A stretch of 41,494 nucleotides of DNA from Deltaproteobacteria bacterium RBG_16_49_23 (GTDB lineage: Bacteria; Desulfobacterota; BSN033; UBA1163), in the NCBI GenBank assembly GCA_001798855.1, contig MGQQ01000086.1:1-41494 (forward strand), read 5' to 3'. Numbering within the stretch: position 1 is the first letter of the stretch; the number at the start of each line of letters is the position of its first letter. The position numbers and the translations under genes were made by a program. Under the pieces are notes generated by a model, which did no database searches, was not told the DNA's origin, and saw only the letters and a list, made by a program, of their open reading frames with translations. Positions 20,399-25,067 of this stretch are shown here, piece by piece.

Positions 20399-20570
20399 AA
20401 TTTCCCCCCTGCCTTCGCCGAAGCGGCTTCGCGCAGGCAGGTCACCTCCTCTTTGCCCTCCGGGCCAGCCGGGGGCCAAAGTAGCGCCCTAATTTACCTG
20501 CCTGCACGAAGCGTTTCGGCGAAGGCAGGTTGAGGGCGGAGTCCGTCGGCAATAAATGCCGACGCTACAA
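20399..20570. repeat. REP-like GC-rich palindromes
   Basis: CCTGCCTTCGCCGAAGCGGC, followed by TTCGCGCAGGCAGG (20408-20442), forms a hairpin. A related inverted copy, CCTGCCTGCACGAAGCG and following GTTTCGGCGAAGGCAGG, lies at 20498-20531. The first hairpin recurs inside the repeat at 21906-21942. This is a dispersed repeat that may also end gmd transcripts. No gene lies here. Confidence 0.65.
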
Positions 20571-20627: not shown

Positions 20628-21875
20628 ATGAAGATACTCTTCTTTTTCGGGACGAGGCCGGAGGCCATAAAAGTTGCCCCTCTGATCAAAGAGCTTCAGA
20701 AGTTCCCTGACACCTTCGAGGTGAAGGTCTGTGTCTCTGCACAGCACCGGGAGATGCTCGATCAGGTCCTCACCTTTTTTGATATCGTCCCTAATGTGGA
20801 CCTCGGCCTGATGAGGCCAAATCAGGATCTCTATGGAATCACCACGAGGGGTCTTCAGGGAATCGGAAAGGTGCTAAAGGCCTATCGCCCTGACTGGCTC
20901 ATCGTTCAGGGGGATACCACGACGACGTTTGTAGGCGCATTGGCTGCCTTTTATGAAAAGATAAGCGTGGCGCATGTAGAGGCAGGCCTTCGGAGCTTCC
21001 ATCCATATGCTCCCTTCCCGGAGGAAGTGAACAGGGTTTTAACCACCCACCTTTCCACCCTCCATTTCGCCCCCACTTTGAAAGCGAAGGAAAATCTTCT
21101 GAAGGAATCCATTCCCAAGGATAAGATCTTTGTTGTCGGCAATACAAGCATTGACGCCCTCTTCCTCTGCTTGAAGAAAGTGTCCAAGAAAAAACCCTCC
21201 GAGTTCGAATCTTTTCAATCCATTCGATTTGAGAAGAAAATCATTCTCGTCACGGGACACCGGAGGGAGAGTTTCGGAAAACCTTTCGAGAATATCTGCC
21301 TTGCCCTGAAGGAAATTGCTCAAAAAGAAGAGGTGGAGATTGTCTATCCGGTTCACCTGAATCCAAATGTAAGAAAGCCCGTTTTTGACATTCTGAAATC
21401 CATCTCGAACATTCATCTGATCGAGCCTCTGGATTACCCCTCTTTTGTCTGGTTGATGAACAGAAGTTATCTTATTCTGACAGACTCGGGCGGCGTCCAG
21501 GAAGAGGCTCCGTCTCTTGGCAAGCCCGTTCTGGTGATGAGAGACGTAACAGAAAGAACAGAGGGCATTGACGCCGGGACAGCCAAAGTCGTTGGAACAG
21601 ATCGGGAAATGATCGTCCGGGAAACCCTTCGCCTCCTCCGGGATGAGAAGGTCTACAGGAGAATGGCAAGGGCGGTTCACCCCGTTAGAAATTCCAGTCG
21701 TTGCGACTCGAAACCGAGCGGGGCATTAAACCCCACCGGAATGATTCTTAAATCTAAGCCTGCTGCAGAGCAGCGGAGCATATTTTCTAACGGGGTTAAC
21801 CCTTACGGAGACGGCAAAGCAAGCGGAAGGATCGCCTCCATCTTGCAAGCGGAGAAGTTATTAACAGTCTCGTAA
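20628..21875 (+). CDS. wecB: UDP-N-acetylglucosamine 2-epimerase (non-hydrolysing), with an in-frame repeat insertion
   Basis: A 415-residue protein. GTRPEAIKVAPLI at residues 8-20, QGDTTTTF, HVEAGLRS, LVTGHRRE, VYPVHLNPNV and LTDSGGVQEEAPSLGKPVLVMRDVTERTE are the full set of WecB/MnaA signatures. The enzyme interconverts UDP-GlcNAc and UDP-ManNAc for surface polysaccharides. Residues 351-390 are not family sequence. They are the translation of a 120-base inverted-repeat element (21678-21797), after which the conserved NPYGDGKASGRI resumes in frame. Without it the protein would be 375 residues, the usual length. The last codons and TAA stop lie within the end of another repeat (from 21861). 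Confidence 0.93.
   Translation: MKILFFFGTRPEAIKVAPLIKELQKFPDTFEVKVCVSAQHREMLDQVLTFFDIVPNVDLGLMRPNQDLYGITTRGLQGIGKVLKAYRPDWLIVQGDTTTTFVGALAAFYEKISVAHVEAGLRSFHPYAPFPEEVNRVLTTHLSTLHFAPTLKAKENLLKESIPKDKIFVVGNTSIDALFLCLKKVSKKKPSEFESFQSIRFEKKIILVTGHRRESFGKPFENICLALKEIAQKEEVEIVYPVHLNPNVRKPVFDILKSISNIHLIEPLDYPSFVWLMNRSYLILTDSGGVQEEAPSLGKPVLVMRDVTERTEGIDAGTAKVVGTDREMIVRETLRLLRDEKVYRRMARAVHPVRNSSRCDSKPSGALNPTGMILKSKPAAEQRSIFSNGVNPYGDGKASGRIASILQAEKLLTVS
21678..21797 (+). repeat. ACCCCGTTAGAAA-type element inserted in frame in wecB
   Basis: The ends ACCCCGTTAGAAA (21679-21691) and TTTCTAACGGGGT (21784-21796) are perfect 13-base inverted repeats. A GGTT on each side (21674-21677 and 21794-21797) could be a target duplication. 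The insert is exactly 120 bases, or 40 codons with no stop, and removing it restores A-V-N-P-Y-G-D-G. The central CGGGGC/TTAAACCCC block is shared with the copy at 24916-25067. Confidence 0.85.
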
Positions 21876-22088
21876 TGGAGTTGACATAATCATTGGAAAA
21901 TCTCCCCCCTGCCTTCGCCGAAGCGGCTTCGCGCAGGCAGGTCACCCCTCTTTTCCCTCCGGGCCAGAGGCCCTATGGGCCGGCGGCCAAAGAGGGGTAA
22001 TCCCTCCCTTTGGTCTCCAACCCGGAGGGCAAAGGGAGGGCAGGAGGGATTTTACAAATTGATGTCGTTACTATTTTGAGACTGTTAA
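21861..22088 (-). repeat. TTAACAGTCTC-type MITE, copy A
   Basis: Ends TTAACAGTCTC (21861) and GAGACTGTTAA (22078-22088) are followed inward by TGACAT and ATGTCG arms and GGAAAATC/GATTTT arms. The interior contains a REP-like GCCTTCGCCGAAGC hairpin and the CCTCTTT/AAAGAGG palindromes. It is inverted relative to copies B (30034) and C (37870). Its left end carries the last codons and the stop of wecB. Confidence 0.8.
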
Positions 22089-22566: not shown

Positions 22567-24915
22567 ATGGAGGAAGAAAAGATTCTGCCCGGACAAAAGG
22601 CTTCTCTCATTTCGGACCTTCAGGAGAGAATCGATTCAAGGGATGAAGAGATAAAGGCTCTCAGGAAGGGATTGGCTCAAAAAGATAAGGCCATTGGGGC
22701 TCTTGAACAGAGACTTCGTCAAGAGGAGACTCTCATTTTCAAGTGGCGTCAGGAGATTCTCCGGCTCAAGGGAATTGAGGATACCCTTGCCTGGAAAGCC
22801 GTGCGAAGATTCTTTAACTTTTTAGAAGACGTAGTCCTTCCTCCTCATACGAGAAGGGGCCAACTCTTTATTGAGATCCTGAGCCGATTACGAACCCATT
22901 CGGAAGGTCCGCCGAAAAGTGAAGAAGGGCAGAATCATCCTTTCCTGGGTTCCCGTCAGGAATTCGAATCGACAGACCCCTTCCCATGCCATGGCTCGGA
23001 GGCGCTCACCTTTCCGGTGGGGGTGGAGCCCCAGGTTTCAATCATCATCCCGGCATGGAACAGGTTTGGCTATACTTACAGATGCCTGAAGTCAATTCTG
23101 GAAAAGACCTCGGACGTTCAATACGAGATCATCATTGTTGACGACGGCTCGACCGATGAGACGAAAGGACTCTCCGGAAAAGTCAGAAACATCCGGCTGA
23201 TCCGCAGCGAATCCAATCTCGGATTTGTTCGGGCCTGCAACATGGGGGCGGAAAAGGCAAGGGGTGAATATCTCCTCTTCCTCAATAATGACACCGAGGT
23301 GACCGAAGGCTGGCTTAAGGCAATGGTGGGGCTCATGGAAAACGACCGGACGGTCGGTGTGGTGGGGGCCAAGCTCATCTTTCCGGAGGGCTGTTTGCAG
23401 GAAGCGGGATCGATCGTTTGGAGTGACGGGATGACATCGGGATACGGTCGGGGTGAAGACCCTGACAGCCCCCCCTTTTGCTACAGGAAGGAGGTGGACT
23501 ACTGCTCCGGGGCCTGTCTGCTTGTCCGTAAGCGTCTGTTCTTTGACCTTGGACGTTTTGACGAAATCTACTCCCCGGCTTACTTTGAAGATGCCGACCT
23601 GTGCCTGGGCGCTAAGAGGATGGGATACAAGGTCGCTTATCACCCCGAGGCCGCGATCAAACACCATGAACATGGAAGCGGCACAAGAGAAAAAGCGATA
23701 GATTTATATTACAAGAACCGACTCAAATTCGTGAAAAAATGGGGTCCTGTCCTCAAGAAACATCTCAAACCGAAGCCTGAGAATGTGCTCCGGGCAAGGG
23801 ATGCCCGGACGGGAAAAAGGATGCTCGTGATCGATGAGATCATTCCTGTGTCTTCCCTCGGTTCGGGGTATCCGAGGACAACGGTTCTTTTGAAGTATTT
23901 GGCAGAATTGGGTTACGTCATCACTTTTTTCCCGCTTACGGACGGGTTCCCTTATCAACCCGGGACGAAGGCCCTCCAGAGGATGGGAATCGAGGTTTTC
24001 TACGGAGAGGGCCTGAACCTTCATAGACATCTTGAAGAACGGCATGACTTTTACGATGTGGTCCTTGTCAGCAGGCCTCATAATGCAGACCGGGTGATGC
24101 AGCATCTGAGGAAGTTTTTTCCCAAGGCCCTGATCCTCTATGATGCCGAAGCCCTTTATTCGCTCCGGGAAATAGAAAGGCTGAGGTTGAGGGGGGTCCC
24201 TTTGAATCAGAGCGAAGAGAGCGAGATCATCCGAAGAGAATTGGGATCCATGAAGCAGGCCGATTCGATCATCGTTGTTTCAGAATATGAAAAAGAAAGG
24301 ATGGAAGCCTACGGGTTAAAAAATCTTTTTCGATGGGGTTATCCCTTCAGTCTGAGGCCCCCGCAAAAAGCCTTTGAGGAGAGGAAGGACCTGCTTTTCG
24401 TCGGAGGATTCCTCCAGTCCCCTTCTCCAAACGAAGATGCAATGCTTCATTTCGCTCAAGCGATTTTCCCCCGAATTCAAGAATCTCTGGGATGCGGTCT
24501 TCTCGTTGTCGGAACCAATTATTTGGAATCGGTTTCCCGTCTCCAGTCCGACCACATCACGGTCGTTGGCTTTGTGGAAGAGTTGACCGACTATTACGAA
24601 AGGTCCCGCATCTTTGTTGTTCCTACGAGATTTGCCGCAGGGATTTCACTCAAGCTCCTGGAAGCCATGGGGCATGGAGTGCCCGCCGTCGTCACACCCC
24701 TGATCGCCCGACAACTTGGATTGGCTGACGGGCAAGGCGTCCTGGTGGGAAAGGATGATGAAGATTTTGCCGCTAAGGTCGTGGAACTTTATGAGAACGA
24801 AAAACTCTGGCGTGAATTGCAGAGAGAAGCTTTAGATTTTGTCCGCCAACACTTCGATCCGGAAGAGATGAAGTCCCGTCTGGCAAATTTCTTTCGATCT
24901 TTCGATGCGAGATGA
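22567..24915 (+). CDS. Coiled coil-GT2-GT4 bifunctional glycosyltransferase
   Basis: A 782-residue soluble protein in four parts. Residues 1-75 form a charged coiled coil. Residues 80-105 contain AWKAVRRFFNFLE and PPHTRRGQL, matching the C-terminal end of the glycosyltransferase at 10787. Residues 155-400 are a GT2 domain (VSIIIPAWNRF, IIVDDGSTDET, FLNNDTEVTEGWL, AYFEDADLCLGAKRMGY), the rhamnosyltransferase-like pattern. Residues 418-782 are a GT-B/GT4 domain (LLFVGGFLQSPSPNEDAML, VGFVEELTDYYERSRIFVVP, ISLKLLEAMGHGVPAV). It probably adds two consecutive sugars to the growing glycan, the coiled coil serving assembly or membrane association. The start at ATG 22567 has no strong ribosome-binding site. 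Confidence 0.87.
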   Translation: MEEEKILPGQKASLISDLQERIDSRDEEIKALRKGLAQKDKAIGALEQRLRQEETLIFKWRQEILRLKGIEDTLAWKAVRRFFNFLEDVVLPPHTRRGQLFIEILSRLRTHSEGPPKSEEGQNHPFLGSRQEFESTDPFPCHGSEALTFPVGVEPQVSIIIPAWNRFGYTYRCLKSILEKTSDVQYEIIIVDDGSTDETKGLSGKVRNIRLIRSESNLGFVRACNMGAEKARGEYLLFLNNDTEVTEGWLKAMVGLMENDRTVGVVGAKLIFPEGCLQEAGSIVWSDGMTSGYGRGEDPDSPPFCYRKEVDYCSGACLLVRKRLFFDLGRFDEIYSPAYFEDADLCLGAKRMGYKVAYHPEAAIKHHEHGSGTREKAIDLYYKNRLKFVKKWGPVLKKHLKPKPENVLRARDARTGKRMLVIDEIIPVSSLGSGYPRTTVLLKYLAELGYVITFFPLTDGFPYQPGTKALQRMGIEVFYGEGLNLHRHLEERHDFYDVVLVSRPHNADRVMQHLRKFFPKALILYDAEALYSLREIERLRLRGVPLNQSEESEIIRRELGSMKQADSIIVVSEYEKERMEAYGLKNLFRWGYPFSLRPPQKAFEERKDLLFVGGFLQSPSPNEDAMLHFAQAIFPRIQESLGCGLLVVGTNYLESVSRLQSDHITVVGFVEELTDYYERSRIFVVPTRFAAGISLKLLEAMGHGVPAVVTPLIARQLGLADGQGVLVGKDDEDFAAKVVELYENEKLWRELQREALDFVRQHFDPEEMKSRLANFFRSFDAR

Positions 24916-25067
24916 ACCCCGTTAGAAAGTCTGCGACTTTCCAACGGGACGGCTCACTCGGGGCTTTAAACCCCGTGTTCGCTCAAACGGTAATAACTCG
25001 CCCCCGCTGCAATCCCGGTGAAAGCAAAGCTTCGCACGGGGCAAGCAGCGGGGCTTTCTAACGGGGT
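24916..25067 (+). repeat. ACCCCGTTAGAAA-type element between two glycosyltransferase genes
   Basis: A 152-base element with perfect 13-base ends, ACCCCGTTAGAAA (24916-24928) and TTTCTAACGGGGT (25055-25067). It begins on the base directly after the TGA of the preceding gene. Its right end, GGGGT followed by GAAG, lies in ribosome-binding position for the next ATG at 25072. The next gene's frame is open back into the element (25018). Confidence 0.85.

Follow-up and report, generated by a model that had tools for sequence, protein, structure and literature searches.

The window, by which we mean the whole stretch of 41,494 nucleotides analyzed here, carries a gene for a non-hydrolysing UDP-N-acetylglucosamine 2-epimerase (wecB/mnaA). 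Its product matched TIGR00236 of NCBIfam above the cut-off (E=8.7e-143) and Epimerase_2 of Pfam, and a second, distant homologue is encoded in the same genome. A palindromic element lies in frame inside the gene, and another copy was found downstream; the features are as follows.

20628..21875, + strand: wecB/mnaA, 415 aa with the 40-residue insert included
21677..21678, + strand: left flanking dinucleotide TC of the wecB copy, a candidate target duplication
21678..21797, + strand: net insertion in wecB, 120 bp, codons 351-390, present in no homologue aligned
21679..21796, + strand: palindromic element in wecB, 118 bp end to end, delimited by alignment of copies
21679..21691, + strand: left terminal inverted repeat of the wecB copy, ACCCCGTTAGAAA, 13 bp, perfect
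21784..21796, - strand: right terminal inverted repeat of the wecB copy, reading TTTCTAACGGGGT on the + strand
21797..21798, + strand: right flanking dinucleotide TA of the wecB copy, read from the sequence
24916..25067, no strand assigned: second window copy, 152 bp, composite, with GA on either side, directly behind the TGA stop of ORF 22567-24915

A different palindromic repeat, CCTGCCTTCGCCGAAGCGGCTTCGCGCAGGCAGG, occupies intergenic positions on either side of wecB (20408-20441 and 21908-21941). The window also holds a RAYT-like Y1 transposase gene (PF01797, 15282-16256), which no element terminus adjoins.

The preliminary description of this DNA had reported perfect 13-bp terminal inverted repeats and a stop-free, in-frame insert of 120 bp, with the NPYGDG motif resuming immediately 3' to it, and both observations were upheld. 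It had also taken the segment for an insertion, and alignment with homologues bore this out. Among the WecB-family proteins aligned, the window protein is the sole carrier of residues 351-390 (HPVRNSSRCDSKPSGALNPTGMILKSKPAAEQRSIFSNGV), and the closest orthologue (G003, another species of the genus, 74% identical) has an empty site reading ARAV-NPYGDG, in DNA GCA GTC AAC CCT. The joined flanks of the window gene (GCGGTT-AACCCT) match this empty site (GCAGTCAACCCT in the G003 orthologue), indicating that a net 120 bp was gained in frame in wecB. Between the window species and the orthologue species, a pN of 0.168 against a saturated pS of 0.745 indicated that wecB is protein-constrained overall, with the time before and after the insertion pooled. 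All residues invariant in an alignment of 27 WecB-family sequences are retained in the window protein.

The suggestion that the insertion site is a loop agreed with an AlphaFold2 model of the window WecB (27 aligned family sequences), in which the mean pLDDT was 89.1 and residues 351-377 fell below 50. The fold itself was intact, with a target TM-score of up to 0.94 against solved WecB structures. In the model, the insert lies between a helix at 340-348 and the C-terminal helix at 398-414, and residues 378-385 are predicted to form a short helix. The 40 added residues are thus predicted to form, probably, a disordered or flexible loop before the C-terminal helix. We infer that the insert is expressed and tolerated and that the enzyme carrying it probably still works.

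A search of the source genome (3.83 Mb, 171 contigs) for other copies confirmed that the element is a repeat. With at most one mismatch, 227 termini were found, compared with 6 for a reversed-pattern control, and the window held 7 matches at up to two mismatches against 1.15 expected; these counts indicated that the wecB termini are not due to chance. From the genome, 106 paired copies with shared ends (ACCCC...GGGGT) were collected and studied in the DNA stretches around them. Their lengths range from 30 to 251 bp, with 63, 42, 35 and 97 bp the commonest, and they have the terminal inverted repeats, the short length and the lack of an internal transposase gene that are characteristic of miniature inverted-repeat transposable elements (MITEs). 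The interior is modular: the wecB copy is a composite whose left module is that of the 63-bp form and whose right module is that of the 97-bp form. The larger copies hold a nested second palindromic repeat. This second repeat (CTCCGGGCCAGAGGCCC...type) was observed at L034:2985-3129, L011:1974-2157 and L125:12397-12574, and also near window positions 21957-21992; the in-gene copies at L011 and L125 keep the frame despite it. In place of the two further copies previously counted in the window, we found a single paired one (24916-25067), which includes, on the left, a shorter unit of 35 bp that may have been counted separately.

Identical dinucleotides flank 75 of the 106 copies, compared with 28 by shuffling, while 3-base direct repeats at the flanks occur at the chance level and inverted flanks below it. 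In 77 oriented copies, the element is preceded by (A)GT-RA and followed by RA-A, with R the same on both sides in 73 of them. Identical 2-bp flanks at GT-RA-A sites fit transposition with a 2-bp target duplication at GTRAA. Target-site duplication, as looked for in a MITE, is seen in most of the family and is imperfect at the wecB copy, where TC and TA differ by one base. The boundary triplet is TAA or TGA in 70 copies, and in 18 of these it is the stop of an ORF of 100 aa or longer, compared with 2-3% of TAA/TGA triplets generally and 7% for GTRAAC. Counter-selection inside genes may be the cause of this excess. In two species, a 103-bp copy lies over the 3' end of a gene, probably for a sigma factor (L249:560-910 and L267:1382-1732), and would furnish its C-terminal residues and stop codon.

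A check proposed in the preliminary description, how often copies lie in frame in ORFs, showed that such insertion is not peculiar to wecB. Twelve in-frame copies were found in recognisable proteins of this genome, and at least nine of the hosts are clear, the insert being flanked on either side by homologous or conserved sequence.

WecB: 40 aa, clear case
SdhA/FrdA flavoprotein: 14 aa, clear case
NuoG/FdhA-like molybdopterin enzyme: 33 aa, clear case
Radical SAM protein: 33 aa, clear case
MEMO1-family protein: 37 aa, clear case
Glycosyltransferase: 51 aa, clear case
LPG_synthase_C protein: 55 aa, clear case
PheT, after residue 18: 60 aa, clear case
Ppx/GppA: 62 aa, clear case
Nth-like, MazG-like and pilin-like ORFs: in-frame copies near the N-termini, possibly upstream of the true start

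The copy length n equals 1 mod 3 (n+2 divisible by 3) in 12 of 12 in-frame copies and in 30 of 94 elsewhere (Fisher p = 5e-6), a count that is partly circular because the hosts were first recognized as ORFs running through the copy; L105 and L116 (n = 2 mod 3, apparent spurious reverse-strand ORFs) and small ORFs were excluded. The inserted peptide reads (N/H)P(V/I)R...SNG(V/A), that is, the NPVRNS...ISNGV type, in 11 of the 12, the exception being the pilin-like ORF. In that ORF (L147:1886-2539), the copy lies at the GF-TLIE prepilin cleavage motif, is read in another frame as TPLESS...LTGF and appears to duplicate the GF residues. PheT has one full-length copy in the genome and the insert is in it, so that the element sits in a presumably essential gene. 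None of the 35-, 42- and 63-bp copies, whose lengths would shift the frame, was in frame within a recognized gene. The earlier proposal that the element tolerates all-open translation thus held for the longer copies, in one orientation and frame, but not for these three forms. The insert had no match in Pfam or NCBIfam, and a literature search on the end sequence and the peptide found no relevant paper. Annotators should beware of the spurious local similarity that it causes among unrelated proteins, an effect that was observed directly in the analysis.

Several insertions are common to more than one species. Four species from two genera have the LPG_synthase_C insertion at the identical codon, and two species have the radical SAM insertion in common; where calculable, dN/dS of the hosts was 0.13-0.15. 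Third-position differences in LPG_synthase_C numbered 0/33 in the insert and 106/304 in the flanks for G003 versus G007, and 2/33 and 159/305 for G000 versus G014; for the radical SAM pair they were 1/33 and 213/516. Over 15 orthologous pairs, element identity was 91-98% in 12 and 79-88% in 3, and the flanking third positions were mostly 20-60% different. In most pairs, therefore, the orthologous element DNA is, unexpectedly, conserved far beyond nearby synonymous sites, and a passive relic should diverge more. In the LPG_synthase_C genes and in the 5'-leader group, orthologous copies have private departures from the family consensus in common, indicating that plain homogenisation to the consensus is insufficient to account for their conservation; local recombination between species is a possible source. 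The 5'-leader copy, of 97 bp, is strongly conserved in four species (L166, L224, L246 and L258; alignment A3) and lies downstream of a conserved promoter-like region and ahead of the ribosome-binding site of one and the same gene; a regulatory use is possible.

Strict short copies occurred, among 58 relatives, in two of the family's genera and in one genome that is more distant. Of the relatives, G014 is PEUO01, G006 is JASEHH and G003 is VGSS01, with the record titles Deltaproteobacteria or Thermodesulfobacteriota. When 84,980 species genomes were scanned for exact 22-mer matches, 76 stretches were returned. The carriers, all genomes being metagenome-assembled (MAGs) and named by record title, are Deltaproteobacteria, Thermodesulfobacteriota, Syntrophaceae, Desulfobacterales, Nitrospirae, Nitrospinota, Patescibacteria and Berkelbacteria. 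Two Patescibacteria-titled genomes of ~1.1 Mb each contained 105 and 113 termini, a density too high for stray contamination. In-frame copies were also found in MurA and DnaX (Berkelbacteria-titled), MurD (Patescibacteria-titled) and an M16 peptidase (Nitrospirae-titled MAG), extending the in-frame habit to other phyla. The element had no match among viral contigs, plasmids and phages, and a vector of these kinds was rejected.

Taken together, these data make us fairly confident that the wecB copy is a small non-autonomous (MITE-like) palindromic element whose in-frame insertions survive as translational fusions. A putative trans-acting enzyme would move the element and duplicate 2 bp of the target; element and duplication would then add n+2 bp, and copies with n = 1 mod 3 would preserve the reading frame. 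As the longer copies also lack stops in one orientation, insertions inside genes would persist as fusions reading V-(N/H)PVRNS...ISNG-V-(K/N), and copies of other lengths or orientations would persist mainly outside genes, often right after stop codons. The loci examined yielded no transposase for the element and no autonomous copy, and no pair of ends 330-3500 bp apart, as expected of a parent transposon, was present in these loci, which are short and come from MAGs, which lose repeats. We hold more tentatively, and consider rather doubtful, a broader proposal: that a phylum-crossing and hitherto undescribed palindromic element, small Patescibacteria genomes included, seeds NPVRNS...ISNGV into essential proteins, its DNA being kept near-constant by a homogenising or selective process, and is a general source of loops outside Rickettsia.

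The ~100 copies of short inverted pairs, mainly outside genes and in part vertically inherited, could instead be REPINs, inverted REP pairs that a RAYT (Y1 transposase) mobilises in single-stranded form with no target duplication. Binding of a RAYT to ACCCCGTTAG hairpins would fit, and Y1_Tnp genes were found in 16 of the 17 genomes of the family and in 6 of 6 other carrier genomes tested. We consider this improbable, as the 13-bp ends are not hairpins on their own and the flanking dinucleotides covary as in target duplications. Moreover, few of 40 Y1_Tnp loci hold a terminus, one (C154) being adjacent, so that a cognate RAYT neighbour is not the pattern seen, and Y1_Tnp occurs in G004 and G010, from which the strict short element is absent. 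Somewhat less probable still is that the copies are kept by selection on DNA or RNA, as terminators, protein-binding sites or mRNA structures, with the in-frame copies a by-product. The high identity of orthologous copies described above points that way, as do the many copies right behind stop codons or between promoter-like sequence and a start codon and their strong folding (z -5 to -9). However, inverted repeats fold strongly automatically, base-pair changes are uncompensated (double-change pairs, 2 versus 4.3 by shuffling), and the host-specific distribution and in-frame positions favor insertion over a fixed function. A selected hairpin structure was rejected for this lack of covariation.

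That the 120 bp are removed from the mRNA or the protein, or that wecB is a pseudogene, we regard as very improbable. In its favor are the position of the segment beside the conserved NPYGDG motif, its stable RNA fold and the distant second homologue in the genome; yet every clear in-gene copy keeps the frame, which excision would not need, the invariant residues of the family are all present, and no Rfam family matched at gathering score. Inteins and self-splicing introns are far longer than 120 bp. A known RNA was rejected, the search of Rfam giving two chance-level matches, and so was an integron attC site, since the core sites stand in the reverse order and the copies are single and within ORFs.

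Read as a MITE-like element that survives in frame, the wecB insertion bears on a phenomenon described so far mainly in Rickettsia. That protein-embedded palindromes of a second, unrelated family occur in free-living Desulfobacterota and in genomes titled as other phyla suggests that in-frame peptide seeding is more general. The shared insertions and their empty orthologues provide natural before-and-after pairs for the tolerance of sudden insertions of 14-62 residues.

Rickettsia palindromic elements (RPE; Ogata et al. 2000, 2002, via reviews) insert in frame into unrelated genes, and at least one RPE-bearing product, a guanylate kinase, is both translated and enzymatically active (PMC10969869, PMC2229807). 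The likeness to RPE noted earlier was borne out: both are multicopy inverted-repeat elements, ~100-150 bp in RPE, that lie between genes and in frame in unrelated conserved genes, give a recurrent peptide per element (12 hosts here, 11 with NPVRNS...SNGV) and have no known transposase. The present element differs in its ends (ACCCCGTTAGAAA) and its peptide (NPVRNS...ISNGV), the sequence features that were compared, and the insert matches no Pfam or NCBIfam family. It is hosted by Desulfobacterota and by MAGs titled Patescibacteria, Berkelbacteria and Nitrospirae, whereas RPE are hosted by Rickettsia. It is also flanked by RA repeats of 2 bp at GTRAA, the target duplication of RPE being listed as unknown, and its copies, 30-251 bp long, have modular and nested interiors. 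With the bacterial MITEs that contain ORFs (Correia/NEMIS, ERIC and YPAL; PMC2229807), it shares terminal inverted repeats, the absence of an internal transposase gene, 2-bp flanking repeats and some in-frame gene fusions. However, the duplication is RA here and TA in those elements, the search gave no parent insertion sequence, and fusions within recognisable conserved proteins are frequent here. REPIN/RAYT systems (GTAG- and CGTC-tagged REPs; PMC3733652) likewise have many copies of short inverted pairs, largely extragenic, and Y1 transposases in the carrier genomes, but the ends here are not hairpins, the flanks resemble target duplications and the RAYT genes are unlinked. The element is best filed as MITE-like, working like RPE and belonging to a different family; it represents a known phenomenon in a new family, and its taxonomic spread is unexpectedly wide.
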